From Halovivax ruber XH-70 (lineage in GTDB: Archaea > Halobacteriota > Halobacteria > Halobacteriales > Natrialbaceae): 64,000 bases of DNA. Below, in pieces: positions 32,338 through 50,890 of the stretch. The DNA lies in contig NC_019964.1 in assembly GCF_000328525.1 (NCBI RefSeq), positions 2,046,001 through 2,110,000 of the forward strand. The letters are read 5' to 3'. The stretch's first letter is position 1; each line of letters starts with the position of its first letter. Both the position numbers and the translations under genes were made by a program. The notes under the pieces are model-generated. The model made no database searches, was not told where the DNA came from, and saw only the letters and a list, made by a program, of their open reading frames with translations.

Positions 32338-32350
32338 TGGGACCGCCGAG
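32338..32350 (+). other. attL core, 13 bp
   Basis: TGGGACCGCCGAG is identical to 50820-50832, which is the 3' end of tRNA-Pro (complement) plus one flanking base. It marks the left limit of the integrated element, 54 bp beyond the integrase stop codon. Confidence 0.85.
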
Positions 32351-32403: not shown

Positions 32404-33492
32404 TCATGTATCAGCCTCCTTGTTGAGGAATGACCGCCGAGACTGCATTCGGCGGATCGGGTCGGGGTGGTCATAGTGCGCCCTGATGACCTCAGGGGTG
32501 GCGTTCACTCGTTCGGCGACGACCTCCGGCGGCCATCCCTCGTCGCGCATATGGGTGATCGCGCCGGTTCGGATTGGATGGGGAGATCGTGAACTTGGGC
32601 AGCGCGCTTCGTGTCCGTGTTTCAGCGCCTCGCAGTTCTCCTCGTCGCGGTTGTGCGGGCACGTCCCGTAGCGACAGGGCTGAGTCAGGATATAGATGTC
32701 TCGCCTAATGCTCGACTTCGAAACGCGGGCGTTGTCGCCCTTCTCGGTCGTGAATAACGGCCGTCGGTCGCCGTCCGACCGCTTCGCCCGTTTGACCTGG
32801 ATGTAGCTTTTGATCAGGCTGGCAACGTCGTCAGACAGCGCGACGGGGCGCTCTCCCTGTTTCTTGTTCTTCAGCGGCGTGTCGGTCTCGGGCCGGTGGC
32901 GGAAGTACAGGAACGGGAGATCGACCTCTTCGAGCGCTTCGTGATCGATGTCGTCCTGGTGGCGTAGACGATCGAGGTCCGACGGCTCGAAGAAACAGTC
33001 TTCGAGATCGAGCGCGCGAAGCCCACCCAGCCGGCACCCGCAGTGCCAAGCAATCGCGAAGATAGCGTGGCGGCGTGATGCCCGGTCGTACAGTTCGAGG
33101 TCTTCGAGGATCTGCTCGGCTCGTTCAGCGCGAACGAGCTCGTCGTTGACTCGCTCCGCTAACTCGACTGTCGGAACCTCGACCTTCTCGTACAGGCCTT
33201 CGGGGACGGCTTCGAGTCGGTCGCAGAACTCGAGGAAGAGCTTCAGCGTTCCGAGCTGAGTCTTCAGTGTCGCCGGGCTGAGCCCTTCGCTCCGGCGCTC
33301 CGAATCGTACCGAAACACGTCACGACTCGTCAGGTCGTTCAGATTGTCGATTTCCTCCTCATCGCACCACTCGACAAACGATTGCATCCGGTAGCGGTAG
33401 CTCTCGATCGTCGCCTCGGATCGAGTAGACTGCAGCCGTTCAAGCCATAGTTCGAGCGCTTCGAGAGGGCTGAGTGGTTCGAGCTCGCTCAC
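32404..33492 (-). CDS. int: Tyrosine recombinase / integrase (SNJ2-type)
   Basis: The 362-residue protein has a SAM-like core-binding N-terminus (ALELWLERLQSTRSEATIES, residues 10-90) and a tyrosine-recombinase catalytic domain. The first Arg is in CGCRLGGLRALDLED, HxxR is HPIRTG, and the nucleophile Tyr is in IRAHYDHPD near the C-terminus. A Cys-rich insertion (CRYGTCPHNRDEENC) may bind zinc. It catalyses integration and excision at the tRNA-Pro core. The GTG at 33492 is preceded by GGAGGT at the right spacing and overlaps the previous stop (GTGA). A longer upstream reading is the complement of the small-gene coding sequence and is rejected. Confidence 0.93.
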   Translation of the reverse strand: MSELEPLSPLEALELWLERLQSTRSEATIESYRYRMQSFVEWCDEEEIDNLNDLTSRDVFRYDSERRSEGLSPATLKTQLGTLKLFLEFCDRLEAVPEGLYEKVEVPTVELAERVNDELVRAERAEQILEDLELYDRASRRHAIFAIAWHCGCRLGGLRALDLEDCFFEPSDLDRLRHQDDIDHEALEEVDLPFLYFRHRPETDTPLKNKKQGERPVALSDDVASLIKSYIQVKRAKRSDGDRRPLFTTEKGDNARVSKSSIRRDIYILTQPCRYGTCPHNRDEENCEALKHGHEARCPSSRSPHPIRTGAITHMRDEGWPPEVVAERVNATPEVIRAHYDHPDPIRRMQSRRSFLNKEADT

Positions 33493-33659
33493 TGTCTTAC
33501 CTCCTGTCCGGCGCGATCGCGGCGCTTGGCTTCGCGATAGGCGTGTTCGATCTCCCGCGCGCAACTGGCGCAGACGTAGCCCTCGGGAGTGATCTCCTCG
33601 GCCGTCCCGTCGCAGCGCGGCGTGTCGCACTGGCCGGGTTCAACGGGTTGGACGCTCAT
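33489..33659 (-). CDS. Small zinc-binding protein cotranscribed with the integrase
   Basis: The 56-residue product (MSVQPVEPGQCDTPRCDGTA at the N-terminus) has Cys-x4-Cys then Cys-x2-Cys (VCASCARE), a treble-clef or zinc-ribbon pattern, followed by a basic helix. Its ATG overlaps the stop of the preceding micro-ORF (ATGA) and its stop overlaps the integrase GTG (GTGA). Its 3' end contains the integrase ribosome site. In SNJ2 small genes cotranscribed with the integrase regulate recombination direction, so a recombination-directionality role is plausible here by position. Confidence 0.8.
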   Translation of the reverse strand: MSVQPVEPGQCDTPRCDGTAEEITPEGYVCASCAREIEHAYREAKRRDRAGQEVRQ

Positions 33660-35229: not shown

Positions 35230-35519
35230 TCGACTCAGGGGCCGAGCCGTCCAAAACGGTTATGGGCGCTCACGCTCCGCCACAGATATGTCGATTTCAA
35301 GAGTTTCAGCGGCTTCAAGAGGTGCTTGGAACCGACCAGTGGACAGTTAGGACGCCTTGAAACTCACTCTGGCAAGTAGGTTTATTAGATAGCCGTTCCC
35401 CGTCTTGTTTGAATCCAGTCACAGAGAAAGCCGTGGACGGCGCCCGCTCCGCGATGGACGGACGCACGTAGGTCGATGCTGACGCGTTGGATACGCTTTC
35501 CCAACTGGAGGAGATCAAC

Positions 35520-35966
35520 ATGATGGACGGAAAAACAATTCGCGATAAATTGGTCGGATCGGACGATGAACGGGCTGTCTCGCCTGTTATCGGAGTAATC
35601 TTAATGGTCGCTATCACGGTCATTCTGGCGGCCGTCATCGCGACGCTCGTGATGGACTTCGGTGACAGTACAGAGAGCCCAATCAACGCTCAAACTACGT
35701 CGGATGTGAGTTCTAGCAACGATGAAGTGAAAATCACAATTCAGGAGACCGGAAGCGCTGAATACTTCATGCTCGGAGGCCAAGCCGGCGATCTCAGCAA
35801 CGTTTCCTTCTCTGATGGCAATGCGGACAAATTCGCCGAGAATCCCTCGACCGGGGATATAATCACTGTCACATTCGACGCTCCAGCTGATGAGAAAGAA
35901 GTGAATGTGATTGCTGTTGAAGGCCAGCAAGAGGAGACCGCTGGCTCGTTCACTGTCGGAAACTAA
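35520..35966 (+). CDS. Type IV pilin (archaeal DUF1628-type)
   Basis: The 148-residue protein has a short charged N-terminus, then RAVSPVIGVILMVAITVILA, the class III signal and hydrophobic helix of haloarchaeal pilins. The prepilin peptidase would cut before or near VSPVIG. An Asn/Asp/Thr-rich beta ectodomain follows (DEVKITIQETGSAEYFMLGG). A strong GGAGGAG ribosome site precedes the double ATG at 35520. It lies inside the provirus, 100 bp before the virion operon, and is more AT-rich than that operon, so it may be acquired cargo that alters the host surface, or a virion component. Confidence 0.85.
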   Translation: MMDGKTIRDKLVGSDDERAVSPVIGVILMVAITVILAAVIATLVMDFGDSTESPINAQTTSDVSSSNDEVKITIQETGSAEYFMLGGQAGDLSNVSFSDGNADKFAENPSTGDIITVTFDAPADEKEVNVIAVEGQQEETAGSFTVGN

Positions 35967-36069: not shown

Positions 36070-36471
36070 ATGGCACTGACGCAATCGAAAGGAGTTGACC
36101 TCACAGACGCACTGCTCGCACCGCTGTTCGTCGCGGCTTCCCTCGTGATGGGAGGGCTCGGGACGTTCAGCCTCGATCAACCGCTCTCGTTCTCGCTGTC
36201 GGACGTGCTCTATGCCGCGTCCGGCGTCGAGATTACCTACGCGTTCATCGCCTCGATCGTCGTCCTGGTGATCGCCTGGCTCACCAACGAAGCCAGGGAC
36301 ACGTCTGACTACAGCCAGGAGCAGCTGGCGATCATCGGCGCGATGGTCCTGCTGAACTTCGCGGCAGTCCTCGTTCCGCCGGTCGCAGCGGCGATGGACA
36401 CGTACTGGTACGCGGGCGGCCTGCTCGTCATGATCAACAGCGCCGGCTACTACCTCATCGCCTACTACTGA
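36070..36471 (+). CDS. VP3-like four-TM virion membrane protein
   Basis: The 133-residue protein has four predicted TM helices ([72 protein letters not shown]). Size, topology and position immediately before the spike module match the internal membrane protein VP3 of pleolipoviruses, which lines the inner face of the vesicle-like virion. It is the first gene of the rightward virion operon; the next ATG is 5 bp downstream. Assignment is by architecture. Confidence 0.7.
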
Positions 36472-36475
36472 GCCC

Positions 36476-37036
36476 ATGCCCACCGCACAATCCACTCACT
36501 GCAGGACGGGGTACCGCTTCGCCGCGATCGTCGCGGTTGCACTGTTCGCGATCGGCGCGATCGTCTTCGGCGCCGCGGTCGCGACGGCCGACGGCCCGGA
36601 CGAGCTCGGAAACGAGACGGTGAACGTCTCCGCGGACACGGACCCGCTGGAGGTGACCGTCGACTTCGCCGACGAGTTCAACGAGACGGACACCGAGACG
36701 GTGACCGCGACGTTCTACAACGAAACCGAGTACGCCGACGATCCGGCGACGGCCACCGAGTTGCACAACGTCACGGTCACCGGCGATCCCGGCGAGACGA
36801 TCACCGAGGAGGTGAACGTCTCCGAGACGGACGCGCTGAACCTCAGCACCGAGTATCGGCTGATTCTCACCAGCACCGAGGAGAACGTCGACAGCGTCGA
36901 AATCGGCGGGCTGATCGGCGGCCCAGTCGTCGTCGACGGCGACGGAATGCCCGGCTTCACGCTCGGCGCCGCCGTCGCCGCGCTGGCACTCGCTACCGCG
37001 TTCGTCGCCGCACGTCGGCGCGGAGGTGGCGAATGA
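36476..37036 (+). CDS. Secreted protein with PGF-CTERM-type anchor
   Basis: The 186-residue protein has an N-terminal signal helix (FAAIVAVALFAIGAIVFGAA), an acidic Thr/Glu-rich beta ectodomain, and a C-terminus MPGFTLGAAVAALALATAFV followed by ARRR. That is the tripartite PGF-CTERM signal recognised by archaeosortase A. It would be cleaved and lipid-anchored at the cell or virion surface. It lies between the VP3-like and spike genes and overlaps the spike ATG by 4 bp, so it is probably a virion or envelope component made with them. Confidence 0.8.
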   Translation: MPTAQSTHCRTGYRFAAIVAVALFAIGAIVFGAAVATADGPDELGNETVNVSADTDPLEVTVDFADEFNETDTETVTATFYNETEYADDPATATELHNVTVTGDPGETITEEVNVSETDALNLSTEYRLILTSTEENVDSVEIGGLIGGPVVVDGDGMPGFTLGAAVAALALATAFVAARRRGGGE

Positions 37037-39693
37037 GCGCGGACCCGATCACGGTCGACTCGGCGAACGGAGGTGATCCTGTCGATCACCACCGCCCGGA
37101 AGGGCGCGAGATAACGCGACGTACTCTGCTCAAGACCGGCGCCGCAGCTGGCGCCGCGATGGGAATGGGCGCGATCCCGAGTCAATCTGTGTCGGCAACG
37201 ACGGCGCCGTCACTCGTCGCTACGCCAATAATCTCACCGGGGTTTCTGGCTGTCTCTGCCATCGGCTCCGCGATCGATGGCGTGTTCGGCTCTACGCCCG
37301 ACACGGGCGATCGTCTCACGCTGCACCAACAGGCGACACAGCAAAAAGAGGGCTGGGACGGCCACGTCGTCCAGTTCAACAACCGGCTCACGGACGCCTC
37401 GACGATTGCAGATATCGAAGCCCGTGACGGAATCGCCCAGAGCTACGAAAACGGTGCGACGGAGAACGAGGCCTTATCAAACGCACTCGCTCGAATCCGA
37501 TCGTACTACGCGGATGCGCCGGAACACAACGCGATCGAGATCGCCAATAAGGCGCTCCTGTCCTACCGTGTTATTCAACACGCTGGGGACCAGACCGACC
37601 CGGTTTTCACGGTCCCTACGGCGTGGCAGAACGAAGATGACACGGTAACTGGCCAAATCGTGTTCCGGCCCGACGGCACTGCCGATCTGTCGAAGGACGA
37701 TCCTGGGTTGACCAGCTCGACCATCACGCGCCACGACGGCACCGAGCACACGGTCGGCGTCGGGGTTCAAAACGCGGATGACAATCCGCTTGACGAACCG
37801 ATGACGCCCATCCTCGAGATTTACGACGACAGTTATTACGCTGACGGCGCGTCGAAAGTTGATGAGATTGTCCCGCTCTCGGATGAGACGATCGACGCAT
37901 ACGATTCGTCGGCAGATGAATTCGTGTTCACACTCTCGGATAATTCAGTAATCCACACGAATCTAAAATTCACCATCCCACCGATCACCGATTCGGATGG
38001 GAATCAGCTTCGCGAGTCGAAAACCGTATTCGATCTTCGCGAACTCATGAAGATTCTTACTGAAATCCAAGACCAGAGTGACACGATCGTCGGCAACTAC
38101 GATGCCAATTTCGTCGGTGAATTGTACGCGCTGATGGACGACGGCACGATAGATCCGGGCGATATCCGTGGCTCCGCTGGAATCGCTCGTTTCCTCTCCG
38201 GTACGGACGACGCGAGTGACTCGCGCTTTCAGCTGGCGTTGATGCAGCAACTCGGAATGTCCCGATCGGACCTCTCGAACGTCGCGAGTATGTCGGTCAC
38301 GCTCCAGGGCGCGACCGACAGCAAGGTAGAGTACACCGATTCGGGAGACAGGAACGTCATTCCGACAGATTTCGAGTCATTGGAACTCGAAGGCCAGTTG
38401 TTCGCTCGAACTGATGTGAGTGAGATCGCATCTGGTGAGGTGTATTTCCCGAGGGAGCGTGTCTACGGCGTCGGTGCTGATTCGAGTATCTACGCAATCG
38501 ACCCGTCCGATGGGTCCGAAATCTGGGCATCTGATCACTCGTTCTCCAACGGCATGGCAATCGCCGAATCGGTGAAAGGGGATAAGGTGTTCGTCGCAGA
38601 CAACAACGGCGGAAACGTCGATTGCCATGATGCTACCTCTGGTTCCATCGAGTGGACTGGGTCGGTGTCTGGTCCCTGCGAATCAATCGCCGTTGATCCG
38701 GCTGATGAGGCCGTCTACATCGGGACTAACGATGGCGTCCTCGATGCGATCGACCCGGCCGACGGCTCTGGCCTCTGGTCGGAAAACATCGGTGGCGAAA
38801 TCGCGGCACTCAGCGCCCAACACGACGGCGACTGGCTCATAGTTGCTTCTGGCTCGGCCATCCGTCGCGTCTCGACGGCTGATGGATCGGTCGATTGGGA
38901 GTACACGGAAGCTTCCTCCGCGTTGGTCGATATCGACCTACTGGGCGACGGTTCGGAAGCCATCGCGACCGACGGCTCGACGTTCCACATAGTGGACACT
39001 GCAGATGGAACACAGAAACGCACCTTCTCGGACCCGAACAACTCTGCGCGAACCTCCGCAGGGCCGGACGGTGAAGCCGTCTATTCGGTCAATGGGAACA
39101 CTTCGGACGTGTACGCAATCAACACGTCAGATGGGTCTACCCGGTGGACGAACTCGTCTCACACCTACGAACCGGAGGTCGTAACGGTCACGCCGTCGGG
39201 AAGCGAGATCGTCACGGCGAGCTATGACGAGATCGTCGCGTTCGACTCGACCGGTTCCCGATCCTGGTCGACTAGTTCGATGAACGTTCAGTATAAAGTG
39301 GCGTCTGGTCCTTCGATCCCCGGAAAACCCGGCGGGAAACTCTCCAACGCGCTGTTCTTCGACGTAGCAAATGGGGAGGAGTACGAACTGCAGTCTGGGT
39401 CGATTACTATCGAGGAGATTACCGATGCAGACGGTAACGAACTCGATTCGTCGGATTACAACGAACCCGGCTACGACACCTATGACAGCCAGGAATACGC
39501 GGAGTACGTCGAGGAGCACACGACATACAAAGAGACGATATACCGGGAGGAGGATTCTGGCCCCTCAGTGCCCTGTCTGATCGGGTGCGGCGACGATGGG
39601 GGCGACTGGATCGGCCTCGTGGTCATCGGCGCGATTCTATTCATGGTTGTCGGCTGGGTGACTGACCTGCTCCCGTTTGTCGGTGGTGACTGA
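37033..39693 (+). CDS. Pleolipovirus-like spike with an inserted seven-repeat PQQ-type beta-propeller
   Basis: The 886-residue protein has a Tat signal (ITRRTLLKTGAAAGAAMGMG, residues 33-52), an envelope-type N-terminal domain of about 430 residues (RLTLHQQATQQKEGWDGHVV onward), and a C-terminal TM helix (WIGLVVIGAILFMVVGWV). Between them, at about residues 480-760, seven repeats of the form AIDPSDGSEIW occur, the PQQ/quinoprotein-like propeller motif: IYAIDPSDGSEIW, VDCHDATSGSIEW, LDAIDPADGSGLW, RRVSTADGSVDW, HIVDTADGTQKR, VYAINTSDGSTRW, IVAFDSTGSRSW. Known spikes are about 500-600 residues, so the propeller probably accounts for the extra length. It is the presumed receptor-binding and fusion protein. 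Confidence 0.82.
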   Translation: MSADPITVDSANGGDPVDHHRPEGREITRRTLLKTGAAAGAAMGMGAIPSQSVSATTAPSLVATPIISPGFLAVSAIGSAIDGVFGSTPDTGDRLTLHQQATQQKEGWDGHVVQFNNRLTDASTIADIEARDGIAQSYENGATENEALSNALARIRSYYADAPEHNAIEIANKALLSYRVIQHAGDQTDPVFTVPTAWQNEDDTVTGQIVFRPDGTADLSKDDPGLTSSTITRHDGTEHTVGVGVQNADDNPLDEPMTPILEIYDDSYYADGASKVDEIVPLSDETIDAYDSSADEFVFTLSDNSVIHTNLKFTIPPITDSDGNQLRESKTVFDLRELMKILTEIQDQSDTIVGNYDANFVGELYALMDDGTIDPGDIRGSAGIARFLSGTDDASDSRFQLALMQQLGMSRSDLSNVASMSVTLQGATDSKVEYTDSGDRNVIPTDFESLELEGQLFARTDVSEIASGEVYFPRERVYGVGADSSIYAIDPSDGSEIWASDHSFSNGMAIAESVKGDKVFVADNNGGNVDCHDATSGSIEWTGSVSGPCESIAVDPADEAVYIGTNDGVLDAIDPADGSGLWSENIGGEIAALSAQHDGDWLIVASGSAIRRVSTADGSVDWEYTEASSALVDIDLLGDGSEAIATDGSTFHIVDTADGTQKRTFSDPNNSARTSAGPDGEAVYSVNGNTSDVYAINTSDGSTRWTNSSHTYEPEVVTVTPSGSEIVTASYDEIVAFDSTGSRSWSTSSMNVQYKVASGPSIPGKPGGKLSNALFFDVANGEEYELQSGSITIEEITDADGNELDSSDYNEPGYDTYDSQEYAEYVEEHTTYKETIYREEDSGPSVPCLIGCGDDGGDWIGLVVIGAILFMVVGWVTDLLPFVGGD

Positions 39694-39695
39694 CC

Positions 39696-40235
39696 GTGCA
39701 CCGGCTTTTCATTGCAATCGCGACGGTAGCACTGGCGCTGTGTCTCGCGACCGGTGGCGTCGCGGCCCAAGCCCAAAACGCGAGCAACGAGACGACGGCG
39801 GCGGCCGGCGACGACTACCAGGAGGTTATCGACGAGGACACACGAATCACCAACTGGCAGTATTCGCCGGGCCAGTTCCTCATCACCATCCAGGCTGACG
39901 CATCGACGTCAATCTCACTCACCGAAGCTGGATCGTTCGACGAGGGAACCAGCCAGTTCAACTACGGCGAGCGCGAGCTCGAGGAAGGTGAGAACGTCAT
40001 CCGGTTCTCGGTTACCGACCGCCAGGGTGCGGCCGTCGCGATCGCGACGAGACAGTCACTCCAGAACGGCGGCGGCGCGATCGTCTCGACTGGCGCCGTC
40101 GAACGCAACCCGATGAGCAATTTCGGCGGTGAAAGCGGACTGCTGTCCGGTATCGCGATCACAGTCGCGATGGCCGGACTCGGCGCCTTGTACGTCGTCC
40201 GTTCGGAAGACAGCGGGGTGAGTGTCGCATCATGA
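39696..40235 (+). CDS. Virion-operon membrane-anchored secreted protein
   Basis: The 179-residue protein has a signal peptide (LFIAIATVALALCLATGGVAAQA), a beta-rich ectodomain (ITNWQYSPGQFLITIQADAS), and a C-terminal TM helix (LSGIAITVAMAGLGALYVV). It starts with a GTG at 39696, 2 bp after the spike stop, and its stop overlaps the next ATG (ATGA). The position corresponds to the conserved small membrane-protein gene after the spike in pleolipoviruses. The exact role is unknown; a spike partner is plausible. Confidence 0.72.
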   Translation: MHRLFIAIATVALALCLATGGVAAQAQNASNETTAAAGDDYQEVIDEDTRITNWQYSPGQFLITIQADASTSISLTEAGSFDEGTSQFNYGERELEEGENVIRFSVTDRQGAAVAIATRQSLQNGGGAIVSTGAVERNPMSNFGGESGLLSGIAITVAMAGLGALYVVRSEDSGVSVAS

Positions 40236-41026
40236 GCGAGCTCGGTACTACCTTCGCCTCCTGGAAGGACCGCGCGACCTACCTCGCCGCCGAAGCGCAG
40301 CTGCTCATCATCGGCCTCGTCTTCTCGATCGGCGCGCTGTTCTTCTACTTCAAGCCAGAACTGCCAGGCATTCCGCCCATCGCCCACGGCTGGCTCGCCG
40401 CGCTCATGATCTTCGGGCCGCCGCTGCTGGCGATGTTCGTCACGGGCGCCCGGCGGCTTCGCGACCGACACCGGGTCACCGTCCACCACATTAACGCCGT
40501 GACCGACGAACGCGAGAAGTACAACGTCGAGCCCGGCGTCTGGGACGAGAAGACCGTCGAAGGCCCGTCTCCCTACGTCGTTAACGACGGCGACGCCTAC
40601 GAAGTCCGGGAGTTCGAGTGGCACGCGGACACGGAGACGCTGATCGTCACCGGGTGCCACTTCTCAGAACTCGCCGACTCGAAACTCATCACGGTGAAGG
40701 CGATGCTGGAAGACATCCACGGCCAGCTGATCGAGACGGCGATCGCCTACAACAAGTTGCGAGCTCGAATCTCGCGCATGGGCGTCGAGATCGAACGCGA
40801 CGTGGTGAACTTCCAGGCCGAGGCCGACGAGCGTGGGCTAATGGGCCAGAAAACGGCGGTGAAAGAACGGTTCGAGGCGGCCGAAGACGAAGCGCAGGAG
40901 TGGGACACCGACGAGATTCGCGACCTCGGCGACTACGAACACGAGTACGATCCCGTCGCGAACCCCGAAGGCGTCACCGTCGACACCGGCCATCAGGCCG
41001 CCACGGACGGAGGTGAGCAGCGGTGA
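40232..41026 (+). CDS. Virion-operon protein with two TM helices and coiled coil
   Basis: In this 264-residue protein two TM helices lie at residues 18-75 (AQLLIIGLVFSIGALFFYFK; GWLAALMIFGPPLLAMFVTG). A cytoplasmic alpha/beta domain follows, then a charged coiled coil (RISRMGVEIERDVVNFQAEA). The C-terminus reads ATDGGEQR because the ribosome site of the next gene is embedded in it. It is the position of the conserved ORF7-type gene of pleolipoviruses, probably an assembly or inner-membrane factor. It overlaps the ATPase gene by GTGA. Confidence 0.72.
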   Translation: MSELGTTFASWKDRATYLAAEAQLLIIGLVFSIGALFFYFKPELPGIPPIAHGWLAALMIFGPPLLAMFVTGARRLRDRHRVTVHHINAVTDEREKYNVEPGVWDEKTVEGPSPYVVNDGDAYEVREFEWHADTETLIVTGCHFSELADSKLITVKAMLEDIHGQLIETAIAYNKLRARISRMGVEIERDVVNFQAEADERGLMGQKTAVKERFEAAEDEAQEWDTDEIRDLGDYEHEYDPVANPEGVTVDTGHQAATDGGEQR

Positions 41027-42195
41027 CCGACGAACAGGAGATCTTCACCGCGGCGCAACTCCGGGAGCATCAGGACGGCTACCAGGCACGCGAGAACCGC
41101 GAACTCCTCCCGCACACGGGCATCGTTCGGGACCCAAAGATCGAGCGGGCGCTCTCGATCCGCGCCGTCCACTACGATCCAACCGACTGCGACCGGCCCG
41201 ACGAACTCCCGGCGAAGTCCAAAGACCTCGATAAGCACCGCCAGATCCAGCGGATCGAAGGAACCCAGGTTGCCCGCCAGGCACTCGAAAACGGCGACAT
41301 GGCGACGGTCAAGCACCTCACCGGCGACACCAACCAGCGCGCGGACGTGAGCGGCATTCAGGCGATCGGCAACGTCGACGATCTCGTCACCGGCCCGGCG
41401 TCGATCATCTACATCTACGCCGAGCCCGGCAGCGGGAAGACTGACTTCGCGCTCCTGCTCGGCCAGCGCTGGCGTCACCACCAGCCGGGGGACGCCCTGG
41501 TCGCGTCGAACATCCAGACGCTCGAAGAAACCACCGAGTGGACCGATGACGACGGCCGGCTTCGCGACGGCTGGCTCGCCAACTACGGCGCGCTCGACGA
41601 GTGGATCAAGCAGGACGGCGAACCCACCGAGAACGCACAGACGCCGAAGCTGTTCATCTTCGACGAGGCGAGCTCGCACGCCGCAGGTGGTGGCGCGCAG
41701 GGCTACGAAACCCGCCAGAAGATGGGGCCACTCGTCTACAAGATCCGCAAGTACGGTGGGTCGCTGATCATTATCGGCCACGACGGCGGCGACGTCCACC
41801 CGATGGTTCGCGAGCAGTCGAAGGTGGTCAAGAAGGACGGAAAGAAAGAGGCGACAATCTACGACTCGATCCGGAATCGCAAGCCCCAGGGCAAGATCGC
41901 GGGCATCACCGGAATCCCGCCGACTGACTGGCGCTTCGACACGCACGAGGCGACCGCCTGGAGTTGGCACGACCTGCGAGCCGAGGACGAAGACGACGGA
42001 CTCGACGAAGCCGAGGCGGTCGAGCAGGCCGCGATCTACACCGTGATCCGGGCGAAACAGCAGGGAATGAGTAACCGCCAAGTCGCGAAATTCGTTCCCT
42101 GGAGCCACGAGACCGTCCGGAAGCGCTGGAACGAGTATCAGAACGACGGCCGGTACACCGACACGGTTGCCAACGTCGAGGGCGTAATCGCATGA
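41023..42195 (+). CDS. P-loop ATPase with C-terminal HTH (pleolipovirus VP8-like)
   Basis: The 390-residue protein has Walker A YAEPGSGKTDFALLLGQRWR near residue 130 and Walker B LFIFDEAS near 210. A sensor-like strand is GGSLIIIGHDGGDVHP. The C-terminal helix-turn-helix MSNRQVAKFVPWSHETVRKR lies near 350. A conserved P-loop ATPase ends the virion gene block in pleolipoviruses (VP8). It may move genome DNA or act in assembly at the membrane. It starts with a GTG overlapping the previous stop, with a GGAGGTG ribosome site. Confidence 0.8.
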   Translation: MTDEQEIFTAAQLREHQDGYQARENRELLPHTGIVRDPKIERALSIRAVHYDPTDCDRPDELPAKSKDLDKHRQIQRIEGTQVARQALENGDMATVKHLTGDTNQRADVSGIQAIGNVDDLVTGPASIIYIYAEPGSGKTDFALLLGQRWRHHQPGDALVASNIQTLEETTEWTDDDGRLRDGWLANYGALDEWIKQDGEPTENAQTPKLFIFDEASSHAAGGGAQGYETRQKMGPLVYKIRKYGGSLIIIGHDGGDVHPMVREQSKVVKKDGKKEATIYDSIRNRKPQGKIAGITGIPPTDWRFDTHEATAWSWHDLRAEDEDDGLDEAEAVEQAAIYTVIRAKQQGMSNRQVAKFVPWSHETVRKRWNEYQNDGRYTDTVANVEGVIA

Positions 42196-48358: not shown

Positions 48359-48546
48359 GGCAGATCACCCGCCTTGATCGGCGTGCGCGACTGGTTCGGC
48401 AGCCGGCGTGGCTTGTACTGCCGCGCCTTCGGATACGCGGTCTGGCAGCCCACGCACAGGGTGAGACCGACACCCTCGTCCGGCGGAACGTATACCGTCG
48501 CGAGTCGCGGGTTCACCCGGTCAGAACACTCGAAACACCGGGTCAC
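48355..48546 (-). CDS. Small zinc-binding provirus protein
   Basis: The 63-residue protein has CxxC at residues 4-7 (MTRCFECSDR) and CxxC at about 31-34 (LCVGCQTAYP), then a basic Arg/Lys/Gln tail. It reads as a single zinc finger with nucleic-acid-binding charge. The GTG at 48546 overlaps the methylase stop, with GGAGGTG embedded in the methylase 3' end. Function unknown. Confidence 0.72.
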   Translation of the reverse strand: MTRCFECSDRVNPRLATVYVPPDEGVGLTLCVGCQTAYPKARQYKPRRLPNQSRTPIKAGDLP

Positions 48547-49421
48547 CGCTGCTCACCTCCATCGGTCGCGGCAACGAGAGTCTGCTGGTGGGTCGAATCG
48601 TCGACGAGTCCGGCCGTCGCGTCCGGATCGAAGTTCGTCACCAGGCGCTCAGTGTTCTCCTGCTCCCAGTCGCCCTGACCCGACCGCATCGTCCCGCGGG
48701 CCGACCGTTCGATCACGTATTGCTCGCCCTCGAGCGAACGCGGGAGGTCGGTGTAGGAGACGATCCACTTCCCCTCGATCTCGTCGAGGACCTGGGTAAA
48801 GCGGTCGTGGTCAAACCCGCCCTCGTGGGAATAGAGATCGTCGCCAACGTCGACATACGGCGGATCGAAATAGAACAGAGTGTCTTCGGCGTCGGTTCGC
48901 TCCACCAGATCGGCGTAATCACGATTCGCCAGCTGGACGTTACGCAGTCGATCGGCGACCGCGTGGAGCTTTTCGCTCCGGTTTCGATAGACTCTCGCGT
49001 GGTTTCTGGCCTGGCAGAGACGGAAGCCACTGAAGCCGGTATACTTCTGTGCAAACTGCGTGTTCCGCAGGTAGAACCACCGACCCGCTCGCTCGAGGTC
49101 GTCAGCCGGTCGGTAGCCTGCGTAAAACTGGTGAGCGTACTTCCGGTGCAGGTCGCGACTGAACGGCGTGTTCGAAAGCCATTCGACGAGTTCCGCCTCG
49201 CGATCGCGAAGCGTCTCGTAGAAGTGAACGATATCGCTGTCGCGGTCGTTGAAGATCTCGACCGTGCTACGCGGCTTCTGGAGCATGACCGCAGCGCTGC
49301 CGCCGAACGGTTCGACGTAGCAGTGATGCGCCGGGAACTGCTCGATGATCCAGGTCGCGAGTCGCCCCTTGGAACCGGGGTACGGGAACGCGCCCGTTCG
49401 CTCGAGCCCATCACTCGACAC
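48543..49421 (-). CDS. Dam-type (D12 class) N6-adenine DNA methyltransferase
   Basis: The 292-residue protein has the SAM-binding motif I at the N-terminus (FPYPGSKGRLATWI, then YVEPFGGSAAVML) and the catalytic DPPY (LFYFDPPYVDVGDD) near residue 190, the D12/Dam order. The central target-recognition part contains RNTQFAQKYTGFSGF. No cognate restriction endonuclease gene is evident beside it, so it probably protects viral DNA or times replication. I prefer the GTG at 49421, 6 bases after GGAGGTG, over the GTG at 49430, which lies inside that ribosome site. Confidence 0.9.
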   Translation of the reverse strand: MSSDGLERTGAFPYPGSKGRLATWIIEQFPAHHCYVEPFGGSAAVMLQKPRSTVEIFNDRDSDIVHFYETLRDREAELVEWLSNTPFSRDLHRKYAHQFYAGYRPADDLERAGRWFYLRNTQFAQKYTGFSGFRLCQARNHARVYRNRSEKLHAVADRLRNVQLANRDYADLVERTDAEDTLFYFDPPYVDVGDDLYSHEGGFDHDRFTQVLDEIEGKWIVSYTDLPRSLEGEQYVIERSARGTMRSGQGDWEQENTERLVTNFDPDATAGLVDDSTHQQTLVAATDGGEQR

Positions 49422-50819: not shown

Positions 50820-50832
50820 TGGGACCGCCGAG
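50820..50832 (+). other. attR core, 13 bp, within the tRNA-Pro 3' end
   Basis: Identical to attL (32338-32350). Twelve of the 13 bases are the acceptor-stem 3' strand and the adjoining T-stem bases of the tRNA gene, so the tRNA stays intact after integration. Confidence 0.85.
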
Positions 50833-50890
50833 AGTCGAACTCGGGTCCTACGGACCCCATCCGCAGAGGATACCACTACCCCACGGTCCC
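50821..50890 (-). tRNA. tRNA-Pro(GGG)
   Basis: The 70-base cloverleaf reads on the minus strand. Acceptor GGGACCG pairs with CGGTCCC, the D-arm is GGGTAGTGGTATCC, the anticodon stem is TGCGG/CCGTA around loop ATGGGGT (anticodon GGG, codon CCC), and the T-arm is CCGAG-TTCGACT-CTCGG. CCA is not encoded, and there is no intron. Its 3' end is the integration target of the provirus. Confidence 0.96.

Follow-up and report, generated by a model that had tools for sequence, protein, structure and literature searches.

In the 64,000-nucleotide stretch of Halovivax ruber XH-70 DNA analysed here (the window; NC_019964.1, positions 2,046,001 to 2,110,000), the product of the gene at 37033–39693 (+) is probably the membrane-fusion spike of a temperate SNJ2-like pleolipovirus, with a complete seven-bladed β-propeller inserted into it, a reading that includes a role of the propeller as a host-recognition head and its exchange between viruses. 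For the surrounding clade of enveloped archaeal viruses, we give about an even chance to the view that a propeller was inserted once and that whole propellers were then swapped at conserved edges, as an exchangeable receptor-binding head inside a fusion protein. Neither the provirus nor the fold family is new. The searchable literature, outside which some relevant papers lie, yielded no mention of a propeller in a pleolipovirus fusion spike, of its single origin or of its replacement; it held no paper joining pleolipoviruses with PQQ or twin-arginine, and none relevant to propellers in pleolipovirus spikes. A survey of 184 pleolipovirus-like genomes, 164 of them new, describes V-shaped folds and leaves the propeller unmentioned (PMC10599561). 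The propeller-bearing spikes thus extend the reported diversity of pleolipovirus spikes.

The spike gene and its provirus

The gene encodes a VP4/VP5-like protein of 886 residues, and its ATG shares 4 nt with the stop codon of the upstream gene. The protein begins with a Tat signal (RRTLLKTGAAAG, residues 26–52, 37108–37188, +), which matched PF10518 at 24.2 bits and TIGR01409 above its cut-off. The spike core (residues 91–462, 37303–38418, +), as delineated by AlphaFold2 (AF2) modelling and the VP5 profile, is composed of a long-helix N1 bundle, with modelled helices at 91–139 and 144–188, a β-rich N2 and a third helical region, and is followed by the insertion point. The propeller occupies residues 476–757 (38458–39303, +), as indicated by Pfam, AF2, Foldseek and the alignments. 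The sequence of propeller-free spikes then resumes in a conserved β segment (residues 768–800, 39334–39432, +), which corresponds to AF2 strands 354–363 and 368–384 in the numbering of the domain model. A transmembrane anchor, evident in the sequence and modelled as a helix, lies at residues 860–878 (39610–39666, +).

The initial annotation, made from the letters alone, had proposed a viral spike with an envelope-type N-terminal part and a C-terminal membrane anchor, and this description was right. The spike protein matched phrog_2231 (E = 7e-44), and its N-core is homologous to VP13, the 541-aa spike of the betapleolipovirus SNJ2 (27% identity, E = 5e-17). An N-core profile, built from residues 85–466 of the spike (first row) and its relatives, matched VP5 of HRPV-2 and HRPV-6 (6qgi, E = 9e-8; 6qgl, 2.1e-5; 6j7v, 2.4e-5). 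The protein shares N-core and C-terminal homology, gene order and phrog_2231 with SNJ2 VP13, whereas VP13 has about 30 residues in place of the block of about 320 and a signal without the twin-arginine motif. With the V-shaped fusion spike VP5 it shares the N1/N2 profile match, long helices and the C-terminal transmembrane anchor, but the VP5 proteins are propeller-free and, at 533 and 537 aa (PMC6381117), as short as the initial annotation had said of known pleolipovirus spikes. HRPV-6 VP5 fuses membranes with the host S-layer as trigger, and receptor binding in HRPV-2 and HRPV-6 has been proposed to lie with N2 (PMC6381117, PMC8875312). The core of the present spike, which has a hydrophobic N-terminus besides the long helices, N2 and the C-terminal anchor, probably brings about membrane fusion in the manner of HRPV-6.

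The gene lies in an SNJ2-like provirus of 18.5 kb, flanked by 13-bp attachment repeats (TGGGACCGCCGAG). The left repeat is at 32338–32350 (+) and the right one at 50820–50832 (+), within the 3′ end of a tRNA-Pro gene (50820–50890, −). The SNJ2-type tyrosine integrase (32404–33630, −; start uncertain) was recognized by PF02899/PF00589 and by tblastx to the SNJ2 integrase. It is followed, in an order matching SNJ2, by a repressor-like gene, an archaeal type IV pilin-like gene in the position of SNJ2 gp10 (35487–35966, +; Pilin_N, E = 6.6e-16), a gene for a VP3-like membrane protein of 133 aa (36070–36471, +; phrog_3232, E = 1.9e-29), the spike gene, two conserved pleolipovirus open reading frames (ORFs), a putative NTPase gene and more genes up to 50.4 kb. 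The VP3-like protein gave a weak tblastx match to SNJ2 VP12, with the order preserved. The two conserved ORFs are at 39696–40235 (+; phrog_1938, E = 2.2e-48) and 40232–41026 (+; phrog_3526, E = 1.5e-123; 58% to SNJ2 by tblastx), and the NTPase gene, which resembles SNJ2 gp17 and shares its synteny, is at 41023–42195 (+; phrog_1979, E = 3.5e-151). The SNJ2-type integrase, the tRNA attachment site and the synteny identify a temperate betapleolipovirus provirus of the SNJ2 type, while the VP5 N-terminal homology, the signal peptide with the C-terminal anchor, and the core gene block (VP3-like, spike, two ORFs, NTPase) identify the gene as that of a pleolipovirus spike. The provirus is probably the Halovivax one already reported (Liu 2015, as cited in PMC8371274).

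Between the VP3-like and spike genes lies a gene for an accessory secreted protein (36476–37036, +), which overlaps the spike gene in ATGA. Its PGF-CTERM-like tail (MPGFTLGAAVAALALATAFVAARRR; TIGR04126, E = 4.5e-4, below the cut-off of that model) makes it a possible archaeosortase substrate. SNJ2 is devoid of this gene, and a survey of neighbouring genes found one with a similar tail or a plain transmembrane tail upstream of most propeller-size spikes and some short ones. Elsewhere in the provirus, a 32-nt inverted repeat with 91% complementarity is located at 40997–41028 and 48541–48572, and a 264-aa ORF and a Dam-like methyltransferase share the terminal peptide ATDGGEQR, suggesting an exchange of gene ends within the provirus.

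The inserted propeller and its predicted fold

Seven blade motifs, IYAIDPSDGSEIW (486), VDCHDATSGSIEW (529), LDAIDPADGSGLW (570), IRRVSTADGSVDW (~610), FHIVDTADGTQKR (~651), VYAINTSDGSTRW (693) and IVAFDSTGSRSW (~734), are spaced by 40–43 residues (about 41) within the block, the last one ending near residue 745. The strict blade pattern matched four times in the insert; when the insert was shuffled 10,000 times, it matched 0.0008 times on average and never more than once. Pfam PQQ_2 (PF13360) matched residues 483–707 with E = 2.5e-25 and 89.9 bits against a cut-off of 27.6, and a six-frame search of the organism's own genome agreed with this assignment.

The full-length AF2 model, computed from six sequences, had a mean pLDDT of 56 and was weak outside the propeller; the propeller region mostly reached 65–90 and contained about 28 strands, consistent with seven four-stranded blades. 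A second model, of residues 415–805, had a mean pLDDT of 75.6 and a pTM of 0.75. In Foldseek, both models superposed on the designed seven-bladed protein v31WRAP-T (7bid) with TMt 0.86, at 2.3 and 2.7 Å over about 295 residues, while the eight-bladed BamB fitted much worse (TM 0.5–0.6). A closed seven-bladed propeller is therefore well supported as a prediction, and the seven-repeat PQQ-like propeller that the initial annotation had read from its motifs passed the structure prediction that it had proposed as a check. The same fold is shared by v31WRAP-T and the archaeal S-layer YVTN propeller (1l0q), although these are non-viral and only 16–17% identical. Haloarchaeal secreted PQQ_2 proteins likewise share the blade motif and the HMM membership, but their cellular propellers are at most about 33% identical. 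The PQQ repeat protein of Haloarcula californiae tailed virus 2 (R4T7S6), a structural match, is also a PQQ-type propeller from a haloarchaeal virus; unlike the spike propeller, it is a separate 417-aa protein of a tailed virus, outside any fusion spike.

Distribution and origin of the insert

The search for spikes covered the family (125 genomes) and the class (391 genomes), and the spikes fell into two size classes, 24 long and 33 short. All of those scanned shared phrog_2231 (20/20 long and 10/10 short). Between the equivalents of residues 462 and 782, 20 long spikes of the family have 312–348 aa, as compared with 25–37 in the short ones. The insert sits in a loop between β-strands of the C-terminal half. 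The propeller of the long spikes is flanked by a GxxYxVG strand and by LMFD..GVxEVxEM strands, and the SNJ2 junction reads ...TYEGLLFSSETPESGFETGVTYDVSNLNG-TQRMVTG...FYRGKFTITEMTDGDGN. As the initial annotation had it, the propeller is thus an insert, at a single defined point where SNJ2-type spikes lack it. The annotation had also allowed that the repeats might be general to all spikes of the lineage: the 33 short spikes sampled show that they are not, but the block is a common feature of one clade rather than peculiar to this protein.

PQQ_2 matched 21 of the 24 long spikes and none of the ten short ones scanned. One of the remaining three, L032, matched other β-propeller models. The inserts of the other two, L029 (residues ~460–800) and L079 (~440–780), are of the usual size at the usual point, with no propeller signature by any profile and nothing useful from a PDB sequence search; they may be very divergent propellers or a different domain.

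In a maximum-likelihood tree of the N-core, which excludes the insert, the 24 long spikes formed one clade among 30 short ones (support 100/98, present in all bootstrap trees), adjoining short spikes from the same host family. A single gain of the propeller thus appears to fit best and is well supported by these sequences. An earlier tree of 30 rows had left three changes between long and short without resolution, and the addition of more sequences reduced them to one. Since long spikes also occur in three further host families of the order (L079, L080 and L081), the clade has spread. The initial annotation had further supposed capture from a host secreted protein. The single, ancient gain agrees with this, but no donor could be identified: in searches with three propellers, the best cellular matches had about 28–37% identity, which gives no recent donor. 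The propeller of the present spike was nearest to cellular proteins and other spikes at about 31–33%, that of L020 to other spikes (E = 8e-31), and that of L021 to cellular proteins of about 400 aa (E = 8e-10). IMG/VR scans with the protein and two alignments found no relative, plasmids gave no match to the core, and SNJ2 was the sole match for the whole spike among phage records, where the propeller alone matched only weakly, to Klebsiella phage proteins annotated for outer-membrane assembly and to unannotated phages. Giant haloarchaeal open frames of 2000–3900 aa, in which several PQQ_2-like propellers follow one another, occur in G032 (C1:3012239–3016798), G085, G110 and other genomes, and some of these belong to the closest cellular relatives that the spike propellers have.

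A twin-arginine motif was found in all 24 long spikes, with RR invariant in the 20 aligned, and in 2 of the 33 short ones (L034 and L109), the start being impossible to fix for a few of the latter. Because the long spikes form one clade, this link amounts to a single correlated event and, by an independent-pairs test, is not a statistical association. Tat export would fit a domain that is folded before it leaves the cell. L034 and L109 are propeller-free and yet carry Tat signals; given that L034 branches near the long clade, the switch to Tat may predate the insertion.

Replacement of the propeller and its likely role

A contrast between core and propeller is seen in the spikes L020 and L021, whose proviruses, L045 and L046, come from two species of one genus and for the most part share about 90% DNA identity. 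Their alignment is broken at L045 9950–10889, and the propeller is encoded at L045 9994–10872. In the proteins, N1, N2 and N3 are 98%, 91% and 85% identical, whereas the propellers are 31% identical, within the range of shuffled sequences (mean 27%, maximum 34%). Codon-aligned identity of the two spikes falls from about 80% to 41–49% at residue ~455 and returns at ~775. The pairs L013/L017, L012/L015 and L014/L018 show the same contrast, and L016 and L083, from one genome, have cores with 55–61% identity and propellers with 30%. Overall, the propeller is the least conserved part of the spike (median 26% against 30–39%). Neither of the two proviruses checked contained a silent propeller cassette, so that new heads likely come by exchange, either among co-infecting viruses or with genes of the cell.

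These comparisons bear on what the propeller may do. A host surface protein or a chimeric artefact, in place of a viral spike, can practically be dismissed as a reading of the gene: host genomes carry many PQQ_2 propeller genes, but this one sits in order within an SNJ2-like provirus with attachment repeats, its core and C-terminus are homologous to SNJ2 VP13 and to VP5, and the same architecture recurs at 24 loci. It is also very improbable that the propeller is an enzyme, either a quinoprotein dehydrogenase or a glycan-cleaving propeller, working on the host surface. In its favour are the naming of the PQQ_2 family and the weak score (E = 2e-8) of a model for PQQ alcohol dehydrogenase, whereas the propeller has seven blades rather than the eight of BamB and the quinoprotein dehydrogenases, and every enzyme model scores far below its cut-off. 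The absence of a vicinal cysteine pair from the propeller, together with the restriction of the invariant or nearly invariant residues across relatives to the D, G and W of the blade framework, argues against an enzyme. On the same grounds, the term 'quinoprotein-type' in the initial annotation finds no support in its chemical sense. As individual candidates, a PQQ-dependent dehydrogenase was rejected for its eight blades against seven motifs and about 28 strands, the missing CC and a TIGR03075 score of 33 bits against 480, and BamB, an eight-bladed protein that binds BamA, for a TIGR03300 score of 68 bits against a cut-off of 285.

A less remote, although still unlikely, alternative sees the propeller as a fixed structural spacer or stabilizer, giving reach across the thick S-layer or stability in salt, while N2 binds the receptor and the propeller diverges under weak surface constraint. 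N2 is indeed kept in all long spikes, where it is the second most variable region, and it differs along with the propeller in most pairs. The insert belongs to the C-terminal half, the part that lies close to the membrane in HRPV-6 (PMC6381117). The propellers of the related pair L026 and L027 are identical and, like the inserts of L029 and L079 without a detectable propeller signature and the retained, variable N2, weigh against a head. However, drift under weak constraint predicts a gradient, not an unrelated module, and the nearly identical proviruses of L020/L021 differ by outright replacement of the propeller, with abrupt edges. A decoy or shield, covering the fusion core or blocking re-infection and diversifying to escape host surface defences, would produce similar hypervariability and exchange, but we hold it to be very improbable. 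No surface immunity that would select for variation of this kind is known to us in archaea, and the known selective partner of the spikes is the host-specific S-layer (PMC8875312, PMC10599561).

The conservation of the fusion core, the variability of the propeller and its replacement as a unit, and the lack of enzyme features suggest that the propeller is most likely an exchangeable host-recognition head; the receptor or glycan binding put forward in the initial annotation is plausible and gains from the swaps, although N2 may share in host recognition. A fusion spike core would have acquired a complete seven-bladed propeller in a single gain, as an independently folded head recognizing the host surface, with the S-layer glycoprotein or the glycans on it as the most likely target. 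Viruses would then trade propeller sequences by recombining at the conserved edges, resetting the specificity while the fusion core is kept. The logic is comparable to the exchange of phage tail-fibre tips. In paramyxovirus attachment proteins (HN/H/G), a β-propeller is the receptor-binding head of an enveloped virus (e.g. PMC10653815). These propellers have six blades, are separate from the fusion protein and are unrelated in sequence, so that the analogy is one of use only.

Little is known about the receptors that pleolipoviruses use on their hosts, and a single protein is responsible for both receptor binding and fusion. A head that can be separated from this protein and is rapidly replaced would offer a direct handle: its S-layer ligand could be sought with the propeller expressed alone, and near-isogenic proviruses with different propellers would serve as natural host-range experiments. 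One genome (G068) carries three pleolipovirus spikes, of which L016 and L083 are long with different propellers and the third, L112, is short.
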